64,000 nt of DNA, from the NCBI RefSeq assembly GCF_002007645.1, contig NZ_CP019791.1, positions 930,001 to 994,000 of the forward strand, written 5' to 3'. The notes under the pieces are model-generated. The model was not told the DNA's origin. It searched no databases and was given only the letters and a program-made list of their open reading frames with translations. Made by a program: the position numbers and the translations under genes. Of this stretch, positions 1,690-28,801 are shown in pieces. Each line of letters starts with the position of its first letter. Position 1 is the stretch's first letter. This DNA comes from Anaerohalosphaera lusitana. GTDB taxonomy: Bacteria; Planctomycetota; Phycisphaerae; Sedimentisphaerales; Anaerohalosphaeraceae.

Positions 1690-3147
1690 TTATTCGGTTT
1701 CGATGCTCTGAATTTTGAAATAGCCTATGGATCTGTACATGCCCATGTAGTCGGCGGGGTCTCCATCGCCTTTTCCAAATGCGACATGACCTATGTTCCA
1801 GCCGGTCGGGTGAGTGGGATCCAGGCCTACCCATTGGCCGTTGACGTATGCTTCGCACCATGCATGTAGCCAGAATGCTTTTTGCATGTAGACGATGCCC
1901 ATGACGACGCGTGCGGGTATTCCGGCAGCACGGCACATGCCTGTTGCGAGCAGTGCGTGTTCGGTGCAGTCGCCCAGTCCGGTTCTGGCGACTTCGGCGG
2001 CTGAGGCGTAGCCGATGGACAGGTCATTCTCGGATACATAGCTGTAGACAAAGCGTTCGATCTCTTTTACGGCCTGGGCGGCGGTTTCACAGTCGGTGAC
2101 GGCTTTGTTTGCAAGTTCTTTGATCTTTTCATCATCTTTCTGGATATACGTGCTGGCTTTAAGTGCGTCGAGCAGGTCGGAGTCGTCGCCATCGTATGGA
2201 AAGGTTCCGCCGGTCATTTCGGCTTTGGATACTTCGATTATTGTGGTGCCGTCAGCTTTTCGCATTACGCTTTGGCGGGGGCCTGCGTGGAAGTGCAGTT
2301 TGCGGTCGGTGAGCGGTTTTATGACGTATTTTGCGGTTGTCTTTCTGGAGAGGTCCTTGAGCCAGGTCGGACTTGGTATCAAGACGCGTTCGATAATATC
2401 GTATTTTTCGTTCTCACTGAGAGCCTCACCCCTGGTGCATATCGCCGTTTCCATTTTCATGCCCATCTGGGGGGAGACGTCTCTGATGAGCTTGAAGTCT
2501 TCGTTTGCGTAGTAGGCTGTGTACGGCATGGCGGCTGTGGAGCATTTCATGAGAGTGTCGATCCGTGTTGCCCGCAGGTTTTTGCCTTCAGCTTCAATTT
2601 CCTGCTCTTCTCCGACGCGAACTTTCATGGGCACCGCGTCTTGAAAGAGGGGTTCGAACATGTGGACAGTGAATGTATCGCCTCTGGTCAGGCCGTTGTT
2701 TTTGATGTGTAGAAAAAGCCCTTCGTCCATGACCGTGTCTTCGGGGAGGGGGATCCGGCGGGTGGTCGTGCGGCTCGTCGATATGGTTTTGATGTTCATG
2801 ACGCCATTGTCTACCGTGCCTATGTTCCTGCGTACATCGCCGCCGGAAGACTGTTCGTATTCGAATGCTATCGGCTTGCCTGTGAGGGTTTCGACAATCT
2901 TTTCTTTTTCGATTACCTTTGTATCGGTTCCCAGTCGCGTCATGATATAGTTGGTTTCAGTTGTGTTGGTAATCTTGCCGTCGGATATGTGCCTGGTTTT
3001 AACCATGTGACCGACTTTATGGCCGTCGAATAGAAGTTTGTAGTAGTGGGTCTGCTTTTCACTGCCGGCGGGCGTATTTTCTGCGGCGGGGAGGAGGGGA
3101 GATATGACAATAAAGGTCAGAATTGCGAGAATTATCTGTCTGGTCAT
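1690..3147 (-). CDS. Secreted transglutaminase-like protein, copy 2
   Basis: This 485-residue paralogue of the 181-1665 product has a signal peptide MTRQIILAILTFIVISPLLP and a C-terminal transglutaminase-like domain. The triad is Cys394 (GDCTEHA), His428 (WLHAWCEA) and Asp443 (GLDPTH). The reading frame is open for another 113 codons upstream, but that stretch lacks a signal peptide and would overlap the divergent gene at 3305. I therefore place the start at the ATG ending at 3147, which begins a proper signal sequence and has a weak AAGG upstream. It lies 24 bp ahead of its paralogue. Confidence 0.85.
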   Translation of the reverse strand: MTRQIILAILTFIVISPLLPAAENTPAGSEKQTHYYKLLFDGHKVGHMVKTRHISDGKITNTTETNYIMTRLGTDTKVIEKEKIVETLTGKPIAFEYEQSSGGDVRRNIGTVDNGVMNIKTISTSRTTTRRIPLPEDTVMDEGLFLHIKNNGLTRGDTFTVHMFEPLFQDAVPMKVRVGEEQEIEAEGKNLRATRIDTLMKCSTAAMPYTAYYANEDFKLIRDVSPQMGMKMETAICTRGEALSENEKYDIIERVLIPSPTWLKDLSRKTTAKYVIKPLTDRKLHFHAGPRQSVMRKADGTTIIEVSKAEMTGGTFPYDGDDSDLLDALKASTYIQKDDEKIKELANKAVTDCETAAQAVKEIERFVYSYVSENDLSIGYASAAEVARTGLGDCTEHALLATGMCRAAGIPARVVMGIVYMQKAFWLHAWCEAYVNGQWVGLDPTHPTGWNIGHVAFGKGDGDPADYMGMYRSIGYFKIQSIETE

Positions 3148-3304
3148 TTTAGCAGCCTTTTTGTAAGAATGAGTGTTAATTGCGTGTGATTGTATCTTTT
3201 TTGGTTTGCATTTTCCAGATAAAAGCTTTGGGATACAAAATTTAATAGCCTTTAAGATGTGAAAACAGTACAATAACTGTTTTGGTGGTTTTTGTGAGGT
3301 GTTT

Positions 3305-3649
3305 ATGGGTGAAAATGCTGTGAGAGATGTGTTTGGCAGGGGGGAGCTGCCGTGGGATAGGGTTGCGCGGGTTTTTGCGCTGCTTTTTGCGGCGACGCTG
3401 CTGCTTGCGGGGGCAGGGGGGATCTGGATCACGGGGCAGAATCGGACGCTGATCAATTCGAACGAGGCGCTTACCGAGACGAACAAGTCACTGACGGCGG
3501 AGGTGGAGAGGTTCAGCGGTGAGTTGGCGGAGCGTGAGGCGGAGATCGAGAGGCTGGAGGAGCGGGTCGACGAGCTGGAGGGTGAGGTATTGCGGCTGAA
3601 GGTGCAGAATGCTTCGCTGAGGGCGAAGGCGGGGGAAGGGGCGGAGTAG
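3305..3649 (+). CDS. Small membrane-anchored coiled-coil protein
   Basis: A 114-residue protein with one transmembrane segment at about residues 18-40 (VARVFALLFAATLLLAGAGG). After it comes a long charged heptad-rich region (ERFSGELAEREAEIERLEER) that should form a coiled coil. The layout, short inner segment, one TM helix and an outer coiled coil, recalls FtsB/FtsL-type division proteins. Its place just before murE would suit that, but no diagnostic motif is seen and the link is inference. ATG 3305 is chosen because GAGG lies 5 nt upstream; a GTG at 3299 is also possible. Confidence 0.65.
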   Translation: MGENAVRDVFGRGELPWDRVARVFALLFAATLLLAGAGGIWITGQNRTLINSNEALTETNKSLTAEVERFSGELAEREAEIERLEERVDELEGEVLRLKVQNASLRAKAGEGAE

Positions 3650-3928
3650 GGTTAAGGGCTTATGGGTGCTGGAGTTGGCGGTCGGATTTGTGCGGGAACT
3701 GCCTGCGTGACCCGACTTCGGGGGGATTTTTGTGTTCGGGTTCACAAAAATAGTTTCGGTGTGGGTTCTGACTTCTTGCAATAATTTTTTCTTTAGTTAA
3801 AATGCTCCACACACGAAATACAGGGTGTAGAGTGCGTGGTGCCTTCCGATAATTCTGACCAGGGTTTCTCGCGGTGTTTCTGCACTCGATCTAGTTGAAA
3901 ATATGGCACAAATCAAGGTATATAAAAT

Positions 3929-5350
3929 ATGACTTTTACCCAGTTGCTGACGTTGGTCCAGGAATCACAGGATAAGATAGGCGTCTGCTCGGATTCGAGA
4001 CAGGTTACGGAAGGTGATGTTTTTGTGGCTGTGGCGGGCAGTAATGTTGACGGGCACGAGTACATCGGGCAGGCGATAGAGAAGGGCGCGGGTTACGTGG
4101 TTGCCCAGCGCGAGCCCTCGACGAACGGTGTGCCGGTTGTGATGGTCGACGACAGCGCGAAGGCACTGGGTGAGCTGGCGCAGGCGCGGTACGGCAACCC
4201 TGCGTCGCGGATGACGAGCCTGGCGGTTACGGGGACGAACGGCAAGACGACGGTTGCTTATATCGTGCGTTCGATCATATCCTGCACGCCTCACAAGTGC
4301 GGGATGATCGGGACGGTGCAGTATGATACGACGGCTCGGGAGGAATCGGCATCGCTGACGACGCCGGACTCGCTGCAGATCGCTCGGCTTACGAATGAGA
4401 TGGTTGAGAATAATGCGAGGTTCATGGCGATAGAGGCGTCGAGTCATGCGCTGGATCAGGAGAGGCTGGCGGGGCTGAAGTTTACTGCGGCTGCGTTTAC
4501 GAATCTGTCGGGTGATCATCTGGACTATCACGAGAGCGAGGAAGAGTACCTGGCGGCGAAGACGAAGCTTTTCAGGAATCTGCCGATGCATGCTGTGGCT
4601 GTGCTGAACGCGGGTTCGCCGCATGCGAGGAAGATCGCGGCTGAGACGAAGGCGCGGGTGCTGTGGTACGGCATCGACAGGCATGCGGATATTATCGCGA
4701 GCATTCACAAGATGGACGCGGACGGGACGACGTACGGGCTGCACTTCAACGGACATTCGCAGCCGATCAGGACGAAGCTGCTGGGCAAGCATAACGTGGC
4801 TAATCAGCTCGCGGCGGCGGGGCTGTGTATTGCGGCTGGGTTCGATCTGAATACGGTCGCACGCGGTATCGAGCGGCTGGAGAGGATACCGGGCAGGCTC
4901 GATCCGGTGGAGTCGGACAAGCCTTTCAAGGTGCTGGTGGATTACGCTCATACGGACGATGCGCTGGCGAATGTGCTGGCGACGCTGCGGCCGATATGCG
5001 AGGGGGAGCTGACTGTCGTGTTCGGCGCGGGCGGGGATCGGGACAAGACGAAGCGGGCGCGGATGGCGAAGGTCGCGGAGGAGAAGGCGGACAGTATCTA
5101 TGTGACGTCGGACAATCCGCGGACGGAGGATCCGGGGCAGATCATCGATGATATTTTGGCGGGGTTTGCGGATGCGGATAAGGTGACGGTCGAGCAGGAC
5201 CGCAAGAAGGCGATCGAGCTGGCGGTGAAGAACGCCAAGGCGGGGGATGTGGTGCTGATCGCGGGCAAGGGGCATGAGACGTACCAGGTGCTGGGAACAG
5301 AGCGGATCGATTTTGATGATCGTGAAGTGGCCGCGGCGGTTATGGGGTAG
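3929..5350 (+). CDS. murE: UDP-MurNAc-tripeptide synthetase MurE
   Basis: Adds the third residue of the peptidoglycan stem peptide to UDP-MurNAc-L-Ala-D-Glu in the cytoplasm, using ATP. The 473 residues show the Mur ligase order: an N-terminal substrate domain with SDSRQVTEGDVFVAVAG, the ATP loop GTNGKTT at 102-108, central-domain motifs IEASSHALDQER and NLSGDHLDYH, and a C-terminal domain. The DNPR motif at 395-398 is typical of enzymes that add meso-diaminopimelate. Length is normal. TTGAAA and TATATA boxes 18 bp apart sit at 3895-3924, so close to the ATG that the message might be almost leaderless. murF and mraY lie 4-6 kb downstream, separated by two unrelated genes. Confidence 0.97.
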   Translation: MTFTQLLTLVQESQDKIGVCSDSRQVTEGDVFVAVAGSNVDGHEYIGQAIEKGAGYVVAQREPSTNGVPVVMVDDSAKALGELAQARYGNPASRMTSLAVTGTNGKTTVAYIVRSIISCTPHKCGMIGTVQYDTTAREESASLTTPDSLQIARLTNEMVENNARFMAIEASSHALDQERLAGLKFTAAAFTNLSGDHLDYHESEEEYLAAKTKLFRNLPMHAVAVLNAGSPHARKIAAETKARVLWYGIDRHADIIASIHKMDADGTTYGLHFNGHSQPIRTKLLGKHNVANQLAAAGLCIAAGFDLNTVARGIERLERIPGRLDPVESDKPFKVLVDYAHTDDALANVLATLRPICEGELTVVFGAGGDRDKTKRARMAKVAEEKADSIYVTSDNPRTEDPGQIIDDILAGFADADKVTVEQDRKKAIELAVKNAKAGDVVLIAGKGHETYQVLGTERIDFDDREVAAAVMG

Positions 5351-5529
5351 GAAAAGTCCGAGATGAAGTGGTACGGGTTGACTTATGTCATGTGCTCGTT
5401 TCTAACTAAGCCGACTTCGGCACAAAATCGACAGCAGAGAACGATCATTGTACTAGGTTGGACCTCCTTTATGGGACTATCGAATTTAGAAAGGGTTGGT
5501 TTCCTGCTGATTTTTATTCTTCTCTTTGG

Positions 5530-7308
5530 CTACTCCATCCCTTCGAGCCAGTATTCAGCAAGAATAGATAGATCGGTCAGATTAACGGTATCGTCATAGT
5601 TTGTGTCTACTGCTAGATATTTGCGTAAAAGAGGATATGTTTGCGCTTCCTCGATATTCCAAACTGAAACCAAATCCCACCCGGCATTTACAAAAGTATC
5701 AATTGTTTTCATTTGTTCAGTTGAAATACCTTTTGCCCCTGTACCGCCTGCACTGGTAGTCATATTGGATGTTTCAATATTCCAAAAACTATTGATGACA
5801 TTACCCTCAAAGTTCCATCCTACGAGGCCCCCGACATCGTGACTTGTAGTCTCCGCTGAGACTGGACCAGTAGAATAACAGCCGGATACATTGCCTTCGT
5901 TGTTGTCCCCAACCAATCCACCAATACGGCTACCAATGCCCATAACTGAAGCTGTTGAATAACTGGAATAAATATTGCCCTTAAGATTGTCCCCTACCAG
6001 GCCCCCAATATAATGACTCCCTATAACTGATCCAACCGAAAAGCTGCGTTCAATATATCCGCTGTTAAAACCCACTAGCCCACCAGCTCCGTCGCTGGTG
6101 GTTTCAACGTTGCTGGAAGAATAGCAAGTTTTTATTATGGCATAATCGCTATTATAACCTAGTAATCCTCCAATGTGTCGATTGGTTGCGTTGACAGAGC
6201 CCGTGGAATAACTATCCAGAACATTTCCTCCATTTGCGTATCCAAGCAGGCCACCGACATATTCGATTCCGTTAGTTAATCCTGTCGTATAGCATCCTGA
6301 TATGGTGCCGTAATGTTTATAACCAAGCAGACCTCCTGAATAATTGCCAGAGGCGGTGACCAGGCTTTCTGAATAAGAGGATTCGATATCTCCGTAGTAA
6401 CTGTAACCTATGAGACCACCTGTATAAGTAGCTCCGTATACTTCGCCAAAAGATGAACTGTCCGACACAGTTCCTCCATAGCTGTTATACCCAAGTAGCC
6501 CGCCTGAGTATGGTCCACTGGCATTTACATCGCTCGTTGAACACCCGTTGGTTATAGTGGCATAGTTCGCATTTGCGCCGACCAAGCCACCCACAAATTC
6601 CACGCCGTCTACCGTTCCTTCTGAAGAACAATTGTGAATTGTTCCATCGTTGAGACCGACAAGTCCCCCAATATATGAAGCTGAGTTATTAACGGTACAA
6701 ATAGAAGAACAGCTTTTTATTTCAGCGTTATAATTACGACCGATTAATCCGCCCACTTGTTCGTTTCCATTAACAGTTCCCGACGACGAATTGTCTAATA
6801 ATTCACAGTTAGAAATACTTCCAGCCAATACTCCGACATAGTTCTGCCCTATAATTGAAACGTTAGTTATATTTAAATTTTTAACAGATGCTGGTGAACT
6901 TATTAAGCCAAACAGGCCGCAAATGTCTGCACCGTTAATAGATAACTTGCTTATGGTATGATCGGCGCCGTCAAATATGCCCTGATACTCTGTGCCCTGA
7001 AAACCATTGTTAGAACTGTCTGTATCGGGTGCAATTGGGGCATGAGTATAAATAATCCTTCCCGGTAAATTTGGGTCGAGGTCCAAATCACATTCGAGAC
7101 GGGTCTGGACTTCGGCGCGCCAGTAACGTGTATCTCCGCAAAACTCTTGGAAGTCTTCAAAATCTTCAATCAGATACGGGTATTGTTCGGAGCCATCAGG
7201 TTTGTTCTCTATGCCATAAGATGCTTCTCCCATGTCTCCATCAATAGCTAAGACACAGCTAGACACAATTGCTAAAATGGTGATGATGAATGTTTGCTTA
7301 TTTCCCAT
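5530..7308 (-). CDS. Secreted GLUG-repeat protein with C-terminal dockerin-like segment
   Basis: A 592-residue protein with a signal peptide (MGNKQTFIITILAIVSSCVL) and many copies of the GLUG motif (variants of VGGLVGxNxGxIxxCYSTG) from about 120 to 545. Such repeats form a right-handed beta-helix-like surface domain. A stretch with GISTEQMKT follows, and the C-terminus is dockerin-like (DTNYDDTVNLTDLSILAEYW). GLUG proteins are usually cell-surface adhesins; the ligand is unknown. The gene points against the mur genes, is richer in A+T than its neighbours, and splits murE from murF. It therefore looks like a later insertion into the cluster. Confidence 0.85.
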   Translation of the reverse strand: MGNKQTFIITILAIVSSCVLAIDGDMGEASYGIENKPDGSEQYPYLIEDFEDFQEFCGDTRYWRAEVQTRLECDLDLDPNLPGRIIYTHAPIAPDTDSSNNGFQGTEYQGIFDGADHTISKLSINGADICGLFGLISSPASVKNLNITNVSIIGQNYVGVLAGSISNCELLDNSSSGTVNGNEQVGGLIGRNYNAEIKSCSSICTVNNSASYIGGLVGLNDGTIHNCSSEGTVDGVEFVGGLVGANANYATITNGCSTSDVNASGPYSGGLLGYNSYGGTVSDSSSFGEVYGATYTGGLIGYSYYGDIESSYSESLVTASGNYSGGLLGYKHYGTISGCYTTGLTNGIEYVGGLLGYANGGNVLDSYSTGSVNATNRHIGGLLGYNSDYAIIKTCYSSSNVETTSDGAGGLVGFNSGYIERSFSVGSVIGSHYIGGLVGDNLKGNIYSSYSTASVMGIGSRIGGLVGDNNEGNVSGCYSTGPVSAETTSHDVGGLVGWNFEGNVINSFWNIETSNMTTSAGGTGAKGISTEQMKTIDTFVNAGWDLVSVWNIEEAQTYPLLRKYLAVDTNYDDTVNLTDLSILAEYWLEGME

Positions 7309-7852
7309 CTCTCTCTCCTTCCCAAAAAAGTTAATTTATTTATATAATGCCAGTTCAGTGAAGATATTCAGGTGCACAGAAGCTACCCCTTAAATGGCGT
7401 TGGTCTAGCAGTAATGTCCCTTTTTAGTAGCAACAATTCTCCATAGATTCCACCATGAGAAATCCTCCCACTGACCTTTGTAAGTACAATGCTACGAAAT
7501 CTAAATGAAATTTCAACTATGATTTTGCTCTTTTGTACTGACATTTCCGAATCATATGGTGAGATGTATTTATGCTTGATCCATCGATAAAACTGAAAAG
7601 TCCACTACGGTTAGCCAATAAAAAAATCTATATCTAGATTACTCTTAGCTTCTGCAAGTGAAATGGTACAATTATTCCAGTGAGAGCTAACAATTATTCA
7701 ATTATGTCCATGATGCACTACAAGGAGATGGGGAGACTGTTGATTCTGGTGAGCTTTAGCAGTTTCAGAGCAACCTAAGGTCTGCTTGCAAAATAGTTCA
7801 TGTTTCGCTAAGATGTTTTGGTGGGGTTTATCTTTGTTTTTTGGAGCGAGTT
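7309..7852. other. Divergent intergenic region, nothing recognised
   Basis: These 544 bp separate the divergent GLUG and sulfatase genes and must hold promoters for both. The stretch is A+T rich compared with the sulfatase. I see no gene, tRNA, strong hairpin or repeat in it. Confidence 0.5.
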
Positions 7853-9304
7853 ATGTGTGATTGGGTTGTTGGTCGTCGGGAGTTTCTTAAGGGTTTGGGG
7901 CTTGGGGCGGTTTGTCTGGGTTTGTCGCCTGTTTTGGGGGCGGTTGGTGGGTCTTCGGGCAAGAAGGGTAAGCCGAATGTGTTGTTTATTGCGGTGGACG
8001 ATCTTCGGCCCGAGCTGGGGTGTTACGGGCAGGGGCATATCAAGTCGCCGAATATCGATCGGTTGGCGGATACGGGTACGCTGTTCAGGCGGGCGTACTG
8101 CAATGTGCCGGTGTGCGGGCCATCGCGGGTGAGTCTGATGACGGGGCTGCGCGTTGGGTCGGGGGCGTGGAAGACGGCGGGGATCAAACGGGAGTTTACT
8201 TCGTTGCCCGCATATTTCAAGCGGAACGGGTATACGGCTGTTTCCAACGGCAAGATATTTCACCATATGCATGACCGGGAAGAGGACTGGTCGCGTGAGC
8301 CGTGGCGGTCGGTGCCTATTTATCACGGGGGAAACTGGGCGAAGTATAACAAGAACGGGCTTTGGCAGGACGAAGAGTCGGGTGAGCATATCAATCCGTC
8401 GAAGGGGCGGGGGCCTTATTATGAGTGTGCGGATGTGGAGGATGACGCGTACCAGGACGGGAAACTGGCTGAGAAGGCGGTCAGGGATATGCGGGAGCTT
8501 GCAAGTGCGGATGAGCCTTTCTTTTTGGCGTGCGGGTTCTGGCGGCCTCATCTGCCTTTGAACGCGCCGAAGAAGTACTGGGATATGTACGATGCGGAGG
8601 AGATAGAGCTGGCGGATAATCGGTTCCGGCCGAAGAATCTGCCTAAGCAGGTGCGGAACTCGGGTGAGATATTTCAGTATTCCGAGGTGCGGGAGGGGTT
8701 CAATTCGTATGAGTTCCATCGGCGGACGCGGCATGCTTATTATGCGTGTGTGAGCTATGTCGATGCGCAGATCGGCAAGCTGCTGGATGAGCTGGATCGG
8801 CTGGGGATCGCGGACAATACGATCGTGGTGCTTTGGGGAGATCATGGATGGCACCTGGGTGAGCATGATTTCTGGGGCAAGCACAACACGCTGAACAATG
8901 CGCTGCAGTCGCCGCTGATCGTGCGTGATCCGCGGGGTGAGGCGGGGGCGACGGATTCGCTGGCGGAGTTTGTGGATGTTTATCCGACGCTGTGTGAGCT
9001 GGCGGGGGTTGCGGTGCCGGACCATTTGGACGGAAAGAGCCTGGCGGGTGTGATGAAGGATACTGATGTGCGGATTCATGATGCTGTGTTCGCTCGGTGG
9101 GGCGATGCGGTGGCGATGAAGACGGATAGGTACCTGTATACGGAGTGGGTCAAGGGCGGCGAGACGACGGGACGGATGCTGTTCGACCATAAAAATGACC
9201 CGGAGGAGAACATTAACATAGCCGAAAAGCCGGAAAATGCCGAACTTGTAAAGAGGCTGAGCGGAAAAGTTCACGAGCATTTACGGATTTTGAGCGATAA
9301 GTAG
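7853..9304 (+). CDS. Tat-exported type I sulfatase (iduronate-2-sulfatase-like)
   Basis: Hydrolyses sulfate esters, probably on sulfated polysaccharide, outside the cytoplasm. The 483-residue protein starts with a twin-arginine signal (GRREFLKGLGLGA). The metal-binding NVLFIAVDDLRPELGCYG follows. The formylglycine motif C-G-P-S-R has its cysteine at residue 88, so a separate maturase is needed. GDHGWHLGEHDFWGK and a C-terminal FDHKNDPEENIN match the iduronate-2-sulfatase-like group. ATG 7853 has GGAG 6 nt upstream; TTG 7841 is less likely. The stop is only 2 bp before murF, so this catabolic gene and an essential wall gene are translationally coupled. Confidence 0.93.
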   Translation: MCDWVVGRREFLKGLGLGAVCLGLSPVLGAVGGSSGKKGKPNVLFIAVDDLRPELGCYGQGHIKSPNIDRLADTGTLFRRAYCNVPVCGPSRVSLMTGLRVGSGAWKTAGIKREFTSLPAYFKRNGYTAVSNGKIFHHMHDREEDWSREPWRSVPIYHGGNWAKYNKNGLWQDEESGEHINPSKGRGPYYECADVEDDAYQDGKLAEKAVRDMRELASADEPFFLACGFWRPHLPLNAPKKYWDMYDAEEIELADNRFRPKNLPKQVRNSGEIFQYSEVREGFNSYEFHRRTRHAYYACVSYVDAQIGKLLDELDRLGIADNTIVVLWGDHGWHLGEHDFWGKHNTLNNALQSPLIVRDPRGEAGATDSLAEFVDVYPTLCELAGVAVPDHLDGKSLAGVMKDTDVRIHDAVFARWGDAVAMKTDRYLYTEWVKGGETTGRMLFDHKNDPEENINIAEKPENAELVKRLSGKVHEHLRILSDK

Positions 9305-9306
9305 AT

Positions 9307-11277
9307 ATGAAAGCGATCACAATACGAGAATTGGCGGGGGCTGTTGGTGCGGTTCGTACTGGTTTTGACGAGCATTCGGCTGCCGGGGGGCTTGGGATCG
9401 CCACGTCGCCTTCGGCTCCTCGCGATGACAGGCAGGGGGAGTCAGGAAGGGGCGAAGGGGATGACATACTAGGAAAAGATAAGGAGTCGCTTCGCGACAG
9501 CTTTTCTATGCTGGGTCCGCCTGAGGCGGATGACAAGGGTGTGGATGGTTGTTCTATGCTGGGTCCGCCTGAGGCCGATGGCAAAAAGGGGGATAGTGCG
9601 GAGGGGGAAAAGGAGAAGGGCAATAGAGAGCCGAATTGCGGGGCAGGTGGTGATGCTGTTGCAGGGAGTGCATGCGGCGGCGATTTGTTCTCTGGGCCCC
9701 GGATCAAGTCCGGGGTGACAGCAGGAGGCAGGGATGATATTGGGGGGCGTGGTGATGGTGTTGGGGGCGGGGGTGACAAGGATAGCGGTTTAAAGGAGGA
9801 CGGGCATTCGGGGTCGTCGGGTTTGAGATTGCCACGTCGCTGCGCTCCTCGCAATGACAATGGGGGCTGGGGTGCGGTTGGTGCGGATTCAGTAAGGGAT
9901 AAGGAGTCGCTTCGCGATGCTGATTCATGCTGGATCCCGGATCAAGTCCGGGATGACAATCTGCGCGATCGTGAAATTATTGGCGTTAGTACGGATACTC
10001 GGACGCTTGGTGCTGGGGAGTGTTTTTTTGCGATTCGGGGGGAGAATTTTGACGGGCATGCGTATGTTTCGGCGGCGGTTGAGAAGGGTGCGGCGTGTGT
10101 CGTGGTGGAGGATGGCGCGTGCGTGAGCGGGTGCGGGGTGCCGTGCGTGGTTGTGGAGGACACGGTGCGGGCGCTGGGTGATCTGGCGCGGTGGTATCGT
10201 GAGCAGTTGGGGGCGAAGGTGGTGGCGATCACGGGGTCGGCGGGCAAGACGACGGTACGGCATATTCTGGGGCACGTTCTGTCGCAGCATTTCCGGTGTC
10301 ATCAGGCGAAGAAATCGTTCAACAATCATATCGGGCTGCCTTTGACGCTGCTGGGGGCGGATGAGGACGACGAGATAATCGTGTGCGAGCTTGGGACGAA
10401 CAGTCCGGGGGAGATCGAGTATTTGTCTCGGGTGGCTGGGCCTGACGCGGCGGTGGTGAACAATGTGGGCGAGGCGCACCTGGAGGGGTTCGGGACGGTC
10501 GAGAATATCGCGCAGGAGAAGACGTCGATCCGGGCGGGGCTGAGGGACGGCGGGAAGCTGCTTATCAATGTTGATTGTGCGGTGCTGGTGAGTTATTGCG
10601 ATGAGGCGGGGCTGTCGTACGTGGGATTCGGGACGGGGGCGAGTGCTGATGTTCGGGCGAGCGAGGTGAAGACGACGGGACTGGCGGGGGAGCTGGTGGT
10701 TGATGATATGGTGATATCGGTGCCGTTGGCAGGGGAGGCGAATCTGTATAATGCGCTGGCGGCGTATGCAGTTGCGCGGCAGTTCGGGGTGACGGCGGAT
10801 GAGTTCGCCAAGGCGATGCCGGGGCTGGAGTCGCCGGAGATGCGGCTGGATTTGCAATACGCGGGGCGGGTTACTATAATCAACGACTGTTACAATGCGA
10901 ATCCGGCGTCGATGCGGAACGCGGTTGAGACGCTGGGGCACCTGGTGCGGGGGCATGACGGACGCGCGGTGTTTATCTGCGGGCACATGGCTGAGCTTGG
11001 GGCGGATGCGGACCGGCTGCATGCCGAGCTCGGTGGGACGATCGGTGCGGCGGAGCTGGATCTGCTGGTCGGGGTGGGGGCGCATGCGGATGTGACGGTT
11101 GAAGCGGCGGCTCGGGCATCGGAAAACGGGCTGAAAACGCGGATTTTCCCGGACGTTGAGGTACTTTGTAATAATCTGCAACAAATCGTTCGGCCTGACG
11201 ATATAATACTCGTGAAAGGTTCGCGGGCGGCGGGGCTCGAAAGGGCAATCGACGAGCTGGTGGGCCTTTTCGGGTGA
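9307..11277 (+). CDS. murF: MurF (UDP-MurNAc-tripeptide-D-Ala-D-Ala ligase) with a 200-residue repeat-derived insert
   Basis: Adds D-Ala-D-Ala to the UDP-MurNAc-tripeptide. Residues 1-20 (MKAITIRELAGAVGAVRTG) and 223-656 (from EIIGVSTDTRTL) form a normal MurF of about 454 residues. They include the ATP loop TGSAGKTT at 309-316, the ELGTNSPGEI region and NDCYNANPASM. Between them, about residues 21-222 (9367-9966) are low-complexity Gly/Asp/Arg-rich sequence built from dispersed palindromic repeats, with no stop codon in 600 nt. The insert falls in the substrate-binding N-terminal domain, presumably a surface loop. The start is 2 bp after the sulfatase stop, and mraY follows after 39 bp. Confidence 0.93.
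   Translation: MKAITIRELAGAVGAVRTGFDEHSAAGGLGIATSPSAPRDDRQGESGRGEGDDILGKDKESLRDSFSMLGPPEADDKGVDGCSMLGPPEADGKKGDSAEGEKEKGNREPNCGAGGDAVAGSACGGDLFSGPRIKSGVTAGGRDDIGGRGDGVGGGGDKDSGLKEDGHSGSSGLRLPRRCAPRNDNGGWGAVGADSVRDKESLRDADSCWIPDQVRDDNLRDREIIGVSTDTRTLGAGECFFAIRGENFDGHAYVSAAVEKGAACVVVEDGACVSGCGVPCVVVEDTVRALGDLARWYREQLGAKVVAITGSAGKTTVRHILGHVLSQHFRCHQAKKSFNNHIGLPLTLLGADEDDEIIVCELGTNSPGEIEYLSRVAGPDAAVVNNVGEAHLEGFGTVENIAQEKTSIRAGLRDGGKLLINVDCAVLVSYCDEAGLSYVGFGTGASADVRASEVKTTGLAGELVVDDMVISVPLAGEANLYNALAAYAVARQFGVTADEFAKAMPGLESPEMRLDLQYAGRVTIINDCYNANPASMRNAVETLGHLVRGHDGRAVFICGHMAELGADADRLHAELGGTIGAAELDLLVGVGAHADVTVEAAARASENGLKTRIFPDVEVLCNNLQQIVRPDDIILVKGSRAAGLERAIDELVGLFG
9391..9430 (+). repeat. Palindromic repeat, unit A, in murF
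   Basis: This unit contains GCCACGTCGCC...CTCCTCGCGATGACA and is read in murF as GIATSPSAPRDD. A second copy lies at 9821-9859 (read LRLPRRCAPRND). It belongs to the widespread class of bacterial dispersed repeats that give the spurious peptide SLRGAQRRGN on the opposite strand. Confidence 0.75.
9483..9535 (+). repeat. Palindromic repeat, unit B, in murF
   Basis: This 53-bp unit starts GGAGTCGCTTCGCGAC and ends GAGGCGGATGACA. It matches 18152-18204 at 47 of 53 positions by eye. Partial copies lie at 9554-9582 (read SMLGPPEADGK) and 9903-9917. It holds two short inverted repeats (GTCGCTTCGCGAC and GGTCCGCC...GGCGGA). Confidence 0.75.
9691..9720 (+). repeat. Palindromic repeat, unit C, in murF
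   Basis: The unit has the core CCCCGGATCAAGTCCGGGG, an inverted repeat, followed by TGACA. A second copy in murF lies at 9928-9958 (CCCGGATCAAGTCCGGG, read WIPDQVRDD), and a diverged one at 18044-18074. Confidence 0.75.
9821..9859 (+). repeat. Palindromic repeat, unit A copy 2, in murF
   Basis: Second copy of the 9391-9430 unit (GATTGCCACGTCGC...CTCCTCGCAATGACA), again read through in the murF frame. Confidence 0.75.
9903..9958 (+). repeat. Composite of unit B start and unit C, in murF
   Basis: GGAGTCGCTTCGCGA, the start of unit B, runs into a complete unit C with the perfect inverted repeat CCCGGA / TCCGGG. The composite suggests units inserted into one another or recombined. Confidence 0.65.
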
Positions 11278-12537: not shown

Positions 12538-13711
12538 GTGCCGTTTCAATTATCTAAGTTTAACTTTTGCTGATTTTTTTTATTGCGATATGCTACGTAT
12601 CTATTCAGAGCGATTTTAAGCTCATTGTGGTTTTGATAATTAGTTCCGCGTATGACGAATTCCTTAACATGGGTAAACTGACATTCGATAGGATTTAGCC
12701 ATGATGCGTTGGTCGGCGTCCAGATCAGATGAATATTGTTCTCGCGACAGTACCGCAGAACCTTGTCCTTGCGGTGCGGCGAGAAATTGTCCAGTATCAG
12801 ATGGATCCGCTGGTTCGCAGGATACTTTTTCCTGGTCAGTTTCAAAACTTCCAAGAACTCCTGATGCCGCTTGCGTGGCCGAACATATCCCCAGAGCTTT
12901 TTCTGATGGACATCGTAAAACGCCAGCCAGTGCTGAACGCCGTGTTTGCGGGTATAGGTCGCAGGCAGCCTCTTGGGATGGTCGGTATGACAGTAATTCC
13001 GGCCTGGCTGAGGACGAATCTCCAGCGGTCCGAACTCGTCGAATGATATGGTCGGCCCGTTTGAGGCCGGCTGGTTCACATATCTGCGAATTAGTTTTTT
13101 TTAGACTTGAGATTGGGGTCGTTGCACTCTTTCCACGTCTTTGTCCGCCGGAGCTTGACCTTCTTTTCACGCAGGATGGTCCTGAGTGTTTCAATGCTGA
13201 TCGTAGGAACGATCTTTTCCTGGACAAGATATTCACGCAGTTTTTCCAGGGACCACCGCTTAAAAGGGCAGTCCAGAAGATCGGGCGGACATTTTGCAGT
13301 CTCGGCAATAATGGCCTTGTCGTCCTCGGTAAACTCCGGCGGTCTTCCCGGCCGGGGCTTGGGCTCCAACGCCTTAAGGCCGCGTTGGTTAAAGTCTTTG
13401 ATGATGGCCCTGACATGGTGCGGCGAATAGTGAACCAGCTCGGCGATAGCAGGAACTTTATAGCCCTGGTTAGAGGCAAGAATGACTTGGCCGCGACGAA
13501 TCTTGATTCGGCTTTTGCTGCTGCGGAGTATCCGCTGAATTTGCTGGCCTTCACTGGTACTGAGGTCTCTGGCGTACAGACACATAAGAAATCCCTTTCT
13601 CTGCTTGTAAGCGTGAAATTATTTCTTCGTGTCATTCTATATAATACCAGATTATGCATGGCGCAAGTCTTAAATCATGGAAAAGTTAAAATTATATTTT
13701 TGAAACGGCAC
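12538..13711 (-). mobile_element. IS630-family insertion sequence, complete
   Basis: A 1174-bp element bounded by TA at 12536-12537 and 13712-13713, the dinucleotide target duplication typical of IS630/Tc1-mariner elements. The ends are imperfect inverted repeats of about 33 bp that both begin GTGCCGTTTCAA and share TTTAACTTTT further in. It carries one transposase gene in two frames. It sits 31 bp beyond the first mraY-tail repeat, inside the segment bounded by the two repeats. Confidence 0.93.
12546..13585 (-). CDS. IS630-family transposase made by -1 frameshift (ORF A + ORF B)
   Basis: ORF A (13585-13091, 164 aa) holds the N-terminal helix-turn-helix DNA-binding region (IAELVHYSPHHVRAII...GRPPEFTEDD). 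ORF B (12546 to about 13094) holds the DDE catalytic core: Asp in ISFDEFGPL, Asp in LILDNFSPHR, Glu in NPIECQFTHVKEF. ORF A ends at a run of eight A followed by CTAA. The heptamer A-AAA-AAC at 13100-13094 is a classic -1 slippery site. Slipping there gives ...KKN-LIRRYVNQPASNG and a single 346-residue transposase of normal family length. ORF B also has an in-frame GTG at 13079, but that would split the domain. Confidence 0.88.
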
Positions 13712-13778: not shown

Positions 13779-15053
13779 TCAATCCGCATTAAGCGATCTA
13801 TATACCGAATCGAGAGCTCTTCTGAGAATCCAAGCTTTTTCTCGGGGGCTCTCTTCTTCACGGGTTTCACGAAGAGCGTTCCGTAATGTTTCTCGCTCTG
13901 CTTCTCTGAGACCGTTCTCATTGGATTTCAGCAAAGATTCAACCGTAACTTCGTAAATTGCAGCGCATGCAGAAAACTGGCCTGCATTAAACACAGGTAC
14001 TCCTCTACTTATGGCAAGTTCGATGACAGATTTTGCATCTTGCCGGGGTGTTTTTTTCCCGGTCGCAGGGAGCAATACACTGTCGATCACATGAATCACA
14101 CCATTGGATGCAGGAATGTCAGGGGTGATTACTTTGGCATTATTTACTGTGAATGATCCACTCGTTTTGATTGCTAGCGTTTGCCCCTGGATAGTTTCTG
14201 AATCCTGAGAAGCCAATAATATCTTTGAGGGCAACACGTGATAGGTTAGTATCGCGGTCAGCTTGTCACGGTTTTCCTCTTTTAATAACTCGTCAACAGT
14301 GCCCTTCGGTAACTTTGCAAACGCCTTGTCGGTAGGTGCGAAGACTGTAAACGGTCCATCGCCCTTGAGTGTTTCTACCAGACCAGCGGCCTTGAGAGCG
14401 GCTACGAGTGTCTCGAACTGGCCTGCAGCTACAGCGGTTTCAACAATATCTTTATCATTCTTTGCTGCCGCATCAGTTTTGATGGCTCTGATTGAGGCAA
14501 CTTCCAAACGGAAGGGACCTGCTTTTTTATCAGACAATGTAAATCCAACACTTTGAATGTCACCAGCTTTGGGGGGTGCAACTCCGGAAACCCGTCGACC
14601 AAAAGTAGTATACTCAAATGAATCGATCGGGAAGCGGACTTCCTTCCATGTGTCTTTTTGAGTTTTGAGGGTTGCACGATATGATGTGGCCGAATTGCGG
14701 GAAGACGGCCGGATGTCGAAGTAATATGGTCTTCCATCACCTCTAACACGAAGTGCAAAAGCTTCATATGCTTCAAGGTTAAGGTCAGTTGGCTTTGATC
14801 GAATGGATGCAAATCCGCCTTGATTTTCAAGCGACAAATTCCCGGAGAATACCAGTGTATTGTCTTCACTTACACGAGCTCGGCCTTCGGATATTCCACC
14901 CATAACTGTGTCGTTAACCGAAAGCCATTTTGATTCTGCTGATTCACCTGTAAAGTCGAACAAGGTCTTTTGTGATGACTCAGCGGCGATCCCCGTGGAT
15001 AAGGAGAACAATGTTATTAGCAAAATTACTGCGTTTGTTCTAAGATGTCTCAT
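13779..15053 (-). CDS. Exported CIA30-fasciclin fusion protein
   Basis: A 424-residue protein with a signal peptide ([20 protein letters not shown]). A CIA30-like beta-sandwich covers about 28-185 ([33 protein letters not shown]). A FAS1/fasciclin domain covers about 195-330 ([40 protein letters not shown]), and a charged helical tail ends it. CIA30 domains resemble carbohydrate-binding jelly rolls and FAS1 domains mediate adhesion, so an envelope or matrix role is likely. ATG 15053 is preferred over 15059 because AAGGA lies 7 nt upstream. The gene lies between the IS and the second mraY-tail repeat, so it probably arrived with that segment. Confidence 0.85.
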
Positions 15054-15153
15054 TGTCATGTCCTTCCAAGAAGCTGTTTAAAATTTGCATTATTGTTGGC
15101 TGTGTTTTTACTTATACGGTGTCGGAATTTTGGTGTTCAGCCTAATCCTCATT

Positions 15154-18043: not shown

Positions 18044-18074
18044 CTCTGGATCCCAAATCAAGTTTGGGGTGGCA
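18044..18074 (+). repeat. Dispersed palindromic repeat, unit C relative
   Basis: CTCTGGATCCCAAATCAAG followed by TTTGGGGTGGCA is a diverged intergenic copy of the repeats at 9691-9720 and 9928-9958. Confidence 0.6.
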
Positions 18075-18151: not shown

Positions 18152-18204
18152 GGAGTCGCTTCGCGACGGCTATTTTACGCTTGGTCCGCCGGAGGCGGAT
18201 GACA
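18152..18204 (+). repeat. Dispersed palindromic repeat, unit B copy
   Basis: A 53-bp copy matching murF positions 9483-9535 at 47 of 53 bases with no gaps. It shows that the murF insert is built from mobile or amplified repeats, not from MurF-specific sequence. Confidence 0.75.
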
Positions 18205-27148: not shown

Positions 27149-28801
27149 TTAGCTGAGGCATTCAGCCAGATCGTCCTCGACAGTCGCAACCGGAGCAAGT
27201 CCGAATTGCTCGACGAGTACGTTTAGAACGTTCGGGCCCACGAATGCGGGCAGAGACGGGCCGAGCTTCATATCCTTGATACCCAGGTGGAGCAGGGTCA
27301 GCAGGATCGCGACGGCCTTTTGTTCGTACCAGCTCAGGATCATCGAAAGCGGCAGGTCGTTGACTCCGCAGTCGAATGCTTTGGACAGCGCTACCGCGAT
27401 CTGGATCGCGGAGTATGCATCATTACACTGGCCGCAGTCGAGGATGCGCGGGATGCCTTCGATATCGCCGAATTCCATTTTGTTGAACCGGTACTTGCCG
27501 CATGCCAGGGTGAGGATCACGCAGTCGTCGGGTACCTTTTCTGCGAACTCGGTGTAGTAGTTGCGTCCGGGTTTTGCGCCGTCGCAGCCGCCGATCAGGA
27601 AGAAGTGCTTGATCTTGCCTGCCTTGACTAGGTCGACGACATTTTCGGCGACGCTCATTACGGTGTTGTGTGCGAATCCGATGGGGATGCGTTTTTCGGG
27701 TGCGTCCTCGGTAAAGCCGGGCTGAGCGAGTGCGGCTTCGATGACGGGTGTAAAGTCGTAATCGTCAATATGCTGGACATCCGGCCAGCCGACCAGCCCC
27801 GAAGTAAAGATGCGGTCCTTGTAGCTGTCCTTGGGCTTCTGCAAGCAGTTGGTGGTCATGAGTATTGCGCCGGGGAACTCGTCGAATTCCTTACGCTGAT
27901 CCTGCCATGCACCGCCGTAATTGCCTACGAGGTGGTCGAACTTCTTGAGCTCTGGATAGGCGTTGCAGGGGAGCATTTCGCCGTGGGTGTAGACGTTAAT
28001 TCCCTTGCCCTCGGTCTGCTTTAGAAGCTCGTGCAGGTCCTTGAGGTCATGTCCTGAGACGACGATAGCCTTGCCCTTTACCGGGGTTACACGGCATTGA
28101 GTGGGCTCGGGATTGCCGTAGGTTTTGGTGTTGCCGGCGTCGAGCAGTTCCATCGCACGCAGATTTATTGCACCTGTCTTGAGTGCCATGGCGGTGAGCT
28201 GTTCGACGTCCTGGGGTTCACGGCTGACGTAGTCGAACGCTTCGTGGACGAATGCGTAGACTGCGTCGTCCTGCTGGCCGAGGATCTGTGCGTGGTCCGC
28301 GTAGGCGGAGAGGCCCTTGAGGCCGTAGACGATCAGTTCCTGCAGGCCGGTGACATCATCGCCGTATTCTTTGAGACGGTTCTCGATGGTGACGGATTCG
28401 CCGAGATCGACGAGTGCGTTGAGATCGTTGACCGACTTCCACCAGTCGATGTGCAGGTTGAGATCCTCGGGCTGTTTGCCCTGTTTGCGGCATGCATCTT
28501 CGTACAGATTGCCGATCTTCTGACGGATCTCGGTCGCCTTCTGAAGCAGACGCTGGAAATCGACGGCGTCGAAGTTGACGTTTGTCAGCGTGCTGAAGCA
28601 GGCTTTGATGGTGAATACGTTCGTCTCGTCGTCGGTTACGCCCAACTGCCGCGCTGCATGTGCGTAGCGGGATATTTCCTTAAGTGCGTGCACGGTTAGG
28701 TCCTGAAGCGATGCCACTTCCGGGCCCTTGCCGCAAACGCCGTGAGCGGTACAACCAGAACCTTTGGCTGTCTGTTCACATTGGTAGCAAAACATGTTCA
28801 T
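27149..28801 (-). CDS. hcp: Hydroxylamine reductase / hybrid-cluster protein
   Basis: The 550-residue cytoplasmic Hcp carries a 4Fe-4S cluster and a hybrid Fe-S-O cluster. It reduces hydroxylamine in vitro and nitric oxide under nitrosative stress. The N-terminal cysteines follow C-x2-C-x8-C-x5-C (FCYQCEQTAKGSGCTAHGVC), the class I spacing of strict anaerobes. Hybrid-cluster ligands lie in VSGHDLKDL, TTNCLQ and LACGKYRFN...DCGQCNDAY. ATG 28801 has GGAGG 8 nt upstream. It is the third gene of an operon with an Rrf2 regulator and an HD-domain protein. Confidence 0.97.
   Translation of the reverse strand: MNMFCYQCEQTAKGSGCTAHGVCGKGPEVASLQDLTVHALKEISRYAHAARQLGVTDDETNVFTIKACFSTLTNVNFDAVDFQRLLQKATEIRQKIGNLYEDACRKQGKQPEDLNLHIDWWKSVNDLNALVDLGESVTIENRLKEYGDDVTGLQELIVYGLKGLSAYADHAQILGQQDDAVYAFVHEAFDYVSREPQDVEQLTAMALKTGAINLRAMELLDAGNTKTYGNPEPTQCRVTPVKGKAIVVSGHDLKDLHELLKQTEGKGINVYTHGEMLPCNAYPELKKFDHLVGNYGGAWQDQRKEFDEFPGAILMTTNCLQKPKDSYKDRIFTSGLVGWPDVQHIDDYDFTPVIEAALAQPGFTEDAPEKRIPIGFAHNTVMSVAENVVDLVKAGKIKHFFLIGGCDGAKPGRNYYTEFAEKVPDDCVILTLACGKYRFNKMEFGDIEGIPRILDCGQCNDAYSAIQIAVALSKAFDCGVNDLPLSMILSWYEQKAVAILLTLLHLGIKDMKLGPSLPAFVGPNVLNVLVEQFGLAPVATVEDDLAECLS

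Follow-up and report, generated by a model that had tools for sequence, protein, structure and literature searches.

In the 64,000-nt window of the Anaerohalosphaera lusitana genome analysed here, an array of CGTC-type REPs probably lies in frame within a loop of MurF, where it would be translated through without stopping catalysis. The murF gene (9307-11277, plus strand) was called as an open frame of 656 codons with the Mur_ligase, Mur_ligase_M and Mur_ligase_C domains, and its score with TIGR01143 was 387.9 bits against a cut-off of 288.6; it was the sole place in the genome over this cut-off, four other places matching below it. Likeness to the first residues of relatives, together with the reading frame and the predicted structure, divided the gene into a native N-terminus (residues 1-20, 9307-9366), an inserted block of 603 nt (about residues 21-222, 9367-9969) and the MurF core (from about residue 223, 9973-11274), which in comparison with relatives restarted at about residue 222 with GVSTDTRT and which phmmer matched to 1gg4 from residue 223. 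No stop codon occurred in the murF frame over 9361-9970, where the two remaining forward frames had 5 and 18. The original prediction, made from the letters of the sequence, had described an in-frame, stop-free block of about 600 nt of dispersed palindromic repeats in murF, and this was borne out, the open frame containing three unit types that were dispersed over the genome.

Six unit places were found in the block with covariance models R1 (unit C), R2 (unit B) and R3 (unit A), built from 35, 24 and 23 copies, respectively, the E-values of which are rough. All six shared the orientation of the gene, in the order C (9388-9430), B (full copy, 9484-9535, E 1.1e-27), shortened B (9544-9583, E 7.7e-12), A (palindrome at 9692-9720), C (9819-9859) and a hybrid (9904-9958), in which a B head was joined to an A palindrome (9930-9958) and which was matched by both R2 and R3; together they covered 260 of 609 nt. 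An internal duplication (9367-9518 and 9799-9937, about 150 nt, 70% identity) spanned the C unit to the B head. A repeat listing gave direct-repeat families inside the block but no inverted repeats, for which its minimum was 12 nt; with 5-8 pairs the stems fall short of this, so the evidence for palindromes is covariation, which was counted for units A and C. The stem of unit A was paired in 100% of 112 cells, 17 of them double changes versus 4.9 in shuffles, and that of unit C in 98.4% of 245 cells, with 16 double-change cells versus 3.9. Unit A has a stem of 8 pairs, a loop of 5 and CTGG before the stem (a CCA tail), and unit C has an outer stem of 5 pairs.

Scanning of the genome yielded at least 74 matches for unit C, at least 100 for unit B and at least 61 for unit A, which after merging made up at least 221 places, grouped in 81 clusters; this count is a lower bound, because each model scored no more than the 150 best of its roughly 2900-3700 first-look candidates. 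The stretch from 1.87 to 2.96 Mb had few scored copies, one of them at 2152552, again among the best 150 candidates per model. Outside murF, the window held an intergenic unit A at 18046-18074 and an intergenic unit B at 18153-18204, both on the plus strand; the latter is the copy that had been predicted at 18152, and it was 88.7% identical to the murF copy over 53 nt (47/53). At the scored places the units ended in ATGACA (154/221) or GTGACA (31/221), which on the opposite strand is TGTC before the stem, and 8 further places ended in ATGACG (CGTC on the other strand). Units A, B and C are distinct, but they were not the several unrelated units of the original prediction, since 185 of the 221 places shared the ATGACA or GTGACA end. 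Stem covariation and this shared end would place them near the CGTC-tagged REPs. In the order, unit C was found in 11 of 40 genomes, own genome included, spread across families.

Crude codon-based prediction of genes over 499,573 nt surrounding the 81 clusters placed 196 of the 221 units between genes, 22 in genes and 3 partly in genes, overlapping their ends. Units internal to genes were found only in murF (six) and in a gene for a DPP-IV/S9 peptidase (nine). Other candidate hosts were rejected: in a DUF4186 ORF three units sat ahead of the conserved part, a unit at 139130 and two at 818536-818771 fell in long N-terminal stretches that were taken by eye as wrong starts, and an in-gene unit at 4065093 was a weak match (E 0.006). 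The arrays were strictly oriented, all 50 multi-unit clusters having one orientation and all 140 adjacent pairs lying head-to-tail. After setting apart 4 clusters in genes and 4 unscorable for strand, the upstream gene was on the strand of the units in 52 of 73 clusters (binomial p 0.0004), and the downstream gene in 32 of 73, without bias. A tandem array of five unit A palindromes at an exact 131-nt spacing was noticed at 27463-28015 of the contig (G000:C1, locus L081).

Alignment of related MurF proteins, which had been proposed as a check, revealed no block at any of the 109 other loci, three of which had an N-terminus too short to tell; the MurF of family and order relatives was without it. 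The 110 loci, own included, came from two overlapping sets. No more than 90 open codons preceded the MurF core in 103 of 110 loci, three of these having no more than 9, and at six other loci with a longer upstream frame, a normal MurF N-terminus followed the upstream reading frame.

The peptidase gene (G000:C1:1120125-1123595, corresponding to 3126-6596 of locus L061; 1156 codons) contains a second in-gene block, larger than and related to that of murF, which the original prediction had not seen. Its domains were Peptidase_S9 and a DPPIV_N split into two stretches by about 300 in-frame residues (about 900 nt) with nine unit places, the order of which differed from that in murF. Relatives aligned to the protein up to about residue 480 and again from about residue 787, and the junction at this site was uninterrupted in the loci of all 19 relatives. 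In an AlphaFold model from 16 sequences, which is weaker than that of MurF (mean pLDDT 65.8), residues 481-790 were below 50. A possible target-site duplication at the insert was discarded, 198 of 2000 shuffles scoring as high. Among the S9 copies, pS was 0.065-0.161 and pN 0.035-0.105, silent changes thus weakly exceeding coding ones; the changes were too few, and purifying selection was not claimed.

The two blocks had sequence in common beyond the unit matches. When the in-gene A units, of which murF has one and the S9 gene four, were compared with 50 nt upstream included, the other in-gene copies outranked all intergenic copies for each of the five, and murF and S9 A units were 86-90% identical over 79 nt. 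Among the four in-gene C units, the other type covered by this ranking, two had their murF or S9 counterparts ranked ahead of all intergenic copies, an intergenic copy came in between for one S9 unit, and the first murF C was closest to intergenic copies. The second murF C copy with 28 nt upstream was closest to a copy in the S9 block (64 nt at 92%). Blastn with the units masked (E <= 0.01, 499,573 nt) matched 58 nt before the murF unit A (9634-9691) to the S9 block and to one other place, 1070977-1071030. This place belongs to an intergenic array; it has a stop in the corresponding frame, and a transposase-bearing insertion interrupts it. The 3' part of the 58 nt also forms the head of intergenic A units. 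The inserted element (1071048-1072711, L101) split the loop of an A-type palindrome, had an ORF of 490 aa and ended in AGACTGTGTCGC and GCGACACAGTCT. At the protein level, four segments of the murF and S9 blocks were 63-79% identical. Among 161 genomes of the order, the murF-block protein was matched only in own genome, in which two further weak matches were found outside murF and the S9 gene.

Both blocks were free of stops in frame (0/203 codons in murF, 0/261 in S9). As a control of our own choice we used 37 intergenic arrays. In the three frames of the unit strand these had 405 stops among 12,231 codons, and no array of 100 or more codons was open throughout in any of the three. The Poisson chance of 203 open codons was 0.0012, or 0.014 using the best frame of each array; for the S9 block, taken as 290 codons, it was 6.8e-5, or 0.0022 using the best frame. 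The translated murF block was hydrophilic and acidic (GRAVY -0.96, net charge -14, 20% D+E), whereas 111 frames of intergenic arrays averaged a GRAVY of +0.16 and 6.7% D+E, with only one as low as murF. The S9 block, at -0.28, was not unusual, 14 of the 111 being as low. The spacers in the murF block were 69% purine versus a mean of 51% in 36 intergenic arrays (sd 7.6 points, highest 79%). RNA folding relative to mononucleotide shuffles was not striking (z -2.09 for the murF block, -0.93 for the S9 block). The phase of the TGAC tails was dropped as evidence of translation because it is already implied by the open frame and adds nothing. Some points speak against translation: the best-frame chance for murF is not very small, the S9 block is of ordinary hydrophilicity, silent changes outnumber coding ones only weakly among the S9 copies, and the comparable composite at 1070977-1071030 is non-coding and has a stop in the frame concerned. 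On grounds of composition and frame, the murF block is nevertheless probably translated.

In the AlphaFold model of MurF, based on 66 sequences, residues 24-214 had a pLDDT below 50 and 426 residues reached at least 90; the first two ten-residue blocks, covering residues 1-20, averaged 95 and 87. MurF structures were the best fold matches of the model (4qf5, target TM 0.85). With an N-terminus like that of relatives and a core that matches TIGR01143, 1gg4 and 4qf5, the two parts are predicted to make up a normal enzyme, as had been proposed, and the flanks of the block to fold as MurF. The block is thus most likely a disordered (floppy) loop in an otherwise intact MurF, in keeping with the original prediction; the low pLDDT is compatible with disorder and not proof of it, because it is expected of any segment lacking homologs. 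The sole recognisable murF of this genome, then, appears to encode a working enzyme with a loop of about 200 residues that derives from repeats.

The large size of the insert and the presumably essential role of the enzyme could speak for its removal, like an intron from the RNA or like an intein from the protein, leaving an enzyme of normal length, an idea raised along with the disordered loop in the original prediction. It was not upheld: no Rfam intron family scored above gathering in 9000-10300, where the one match (20.2 versus 50 bits) was taken as chance, and the Pfam matches of the protein at E <= 0.01 were Mur ligase domains alone. An open frame would be unnecessary in an insert that is removed, yet both blocks are open and that of murF is hydrophilic as well, and we regard removal as very improbable. 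Translation might instead start inside the block, the array being a 5' leader and MurF lacking its first 20 residues. Seven in-frame ATG, GTG or TTG codons do lie at residues 68-175, and the TIGR01143 match starts only at the core. However, none of the seven had more than 4/6 matches to AGGAGG in the preceding 16 nt, the last of them would still leave 47 block residues, and residues 1-20 keep the MurF pattern and are predicted with confidence to fold. An internal start, moreover, fails to explain the S9 gene, because there the block splits DPPIV_N; it is quite improbable for murF.

Assemblies are known to fail at repeats, but the genome is one contig of 4,250,973 bases with a completeness of 99.96, and the frame was kept in two separate genes despite their different unit orders, which makes an assembly or sequencing artefact hardly credible. 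It is also conceivable that the loop was taken into service and kept by selection for a function of its own, be it in binding a partner, in locating MurF or in regulating it. The open hydrophilic frame and the occurrence of related inserts in two genes would fit such a function; yet the two host proteins have no other evident feature in common, none of the relatives has the block, and the signal of purifying selection among the S9 copies is weak, so that we consider it improbable. The reading we prefer is that of a REP array translated as part of a working MurF.

In-frame inserts of the CGTC/ATGAC type in essential genes are already known. RPE-6 and RPE-4 of Rickettsia are CGTC-1 and CGTC-4 (PMC3733652), and ATGAC marks RPE-4, RPE-6 and RPE-7 (PMC3767692). 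By motif and description, the blocks resemble these RPEs and the "extended RPE-4", which are ATGAC palindromes in ORFs that leave the frame unbroken, lie at solvent-exposed sites of unrelated genes including essential ones, and occur with more than one type per site (PMC3767692). The likeness to Rickettsia elements noted originally therefore stands: both the murF and S9 blocks keep the frame of a known gene, the murF block is absent from relatives, and ATGAC occurred at 8.2 and 9.1 per kb, respectively, on the gene's strand only, the background in the DNA surveyed being about 1.1 per kb on each strand. They differ in size and build, the RPEs listed in that source being 68-192 bp long (PMC3767692), whereas the blocks here are head-to-tail mosaics of several units.

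With the CGTC-tagged REPs, as described in PMC3733652, the units share a TGTC variant of the tag at the palindrome end, a mostly intergenic location by the crude gene call, the want of a dedicated transposase and the existence of intragenic copies. A stem of 8-9 pairs, a loop of 4-5 and a CCA tail are given for these REPs, to which unit A conforms and unit C, with its 5 pairs, does not. The REPs of that source form predominantly head-head dimers, and clusters are rare except in Neisseria and Wolbachia (PMC3733652), in contrast to the single-orientation arrays found here. The largest intragenic CGTC clusters in that source encode 43-82 residues, shorter than the loops of about 200 (murF) and about 300 residues (peptidase) described here. 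REP/RAYT systems are likewise dispersed short palindromes, but theirs are GTAG-tagged, a tag that the units lack. The single Y1_Tnp (IS200-like) gene found in the genome (4079829-4080176, L119, 223 aa) was not flanked by units, the nearest being the weak match at 4065093 (about 14.7 kb away) and the next at 4180668. A literature search that covered few of the subscription papers turned up no account of a REP insert in murF or elsewhere in the order. As judged against these sources, four features appear to be new: inserts of this size (603 nt and about 900 nt), their build as head-to-tail mosaics of different unit types, a host of this lineage, and sub-blocks common to two coding inserts.

A course of events may be sketched from these data. 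The array, with its TGTC/ATGACA-ended units, would sit in MurF domain 1, in the loop that follows its first strand, and the array, or its first unit, may have entered murF by the route by which REPs spread. Growth could have followed by duplication, as the 152 nt repeated at 70% within the block would suggest, and by exchange or copying between arrays, to which the sub-blocks shared with the S9 gene may point, with selection retaining a frame that was stop-free and hydrophilic. The mRNA would be read straight through to give an acidic, disordered MurF loop of about 200 residues that leaves catalysis running. If translated, the block illustrates the extent to which selfish non-coding DNA can turn into protein with the host enzyme unbroken. 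A bolder and rather unlikely reading is that a coding-adapted array (stop-free, purine-rich, hydrophilic) arose in this lineage and spread between genes as copies that kept the frame, the composites shared by the murF and S9 blocks being such copies; selfish palindromes would then be a source of prefabricated disordered linkers for enzymes, essential ones included. If translated, the murF and S9 inserts are also a natural pair with common parts in which the spread of arrays and their conversion to coding sequence can be studied.

The surroundings of murF in the window had some features of their own. A sulfatase gene (7841-9304, plus strand), an unusual neighbour, stops two bases ahead of the murF start codon. 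Directly after mraY, at 12546-13585 on the minus strand, two adjoining ORFs with HTH domains and DDE_3, respectively, represent a split transposase, which we take to be IS630-like. Further on, at 13779-15059 (minus strand), a CIA30 domain and a fasciclin domain were found in one protein.
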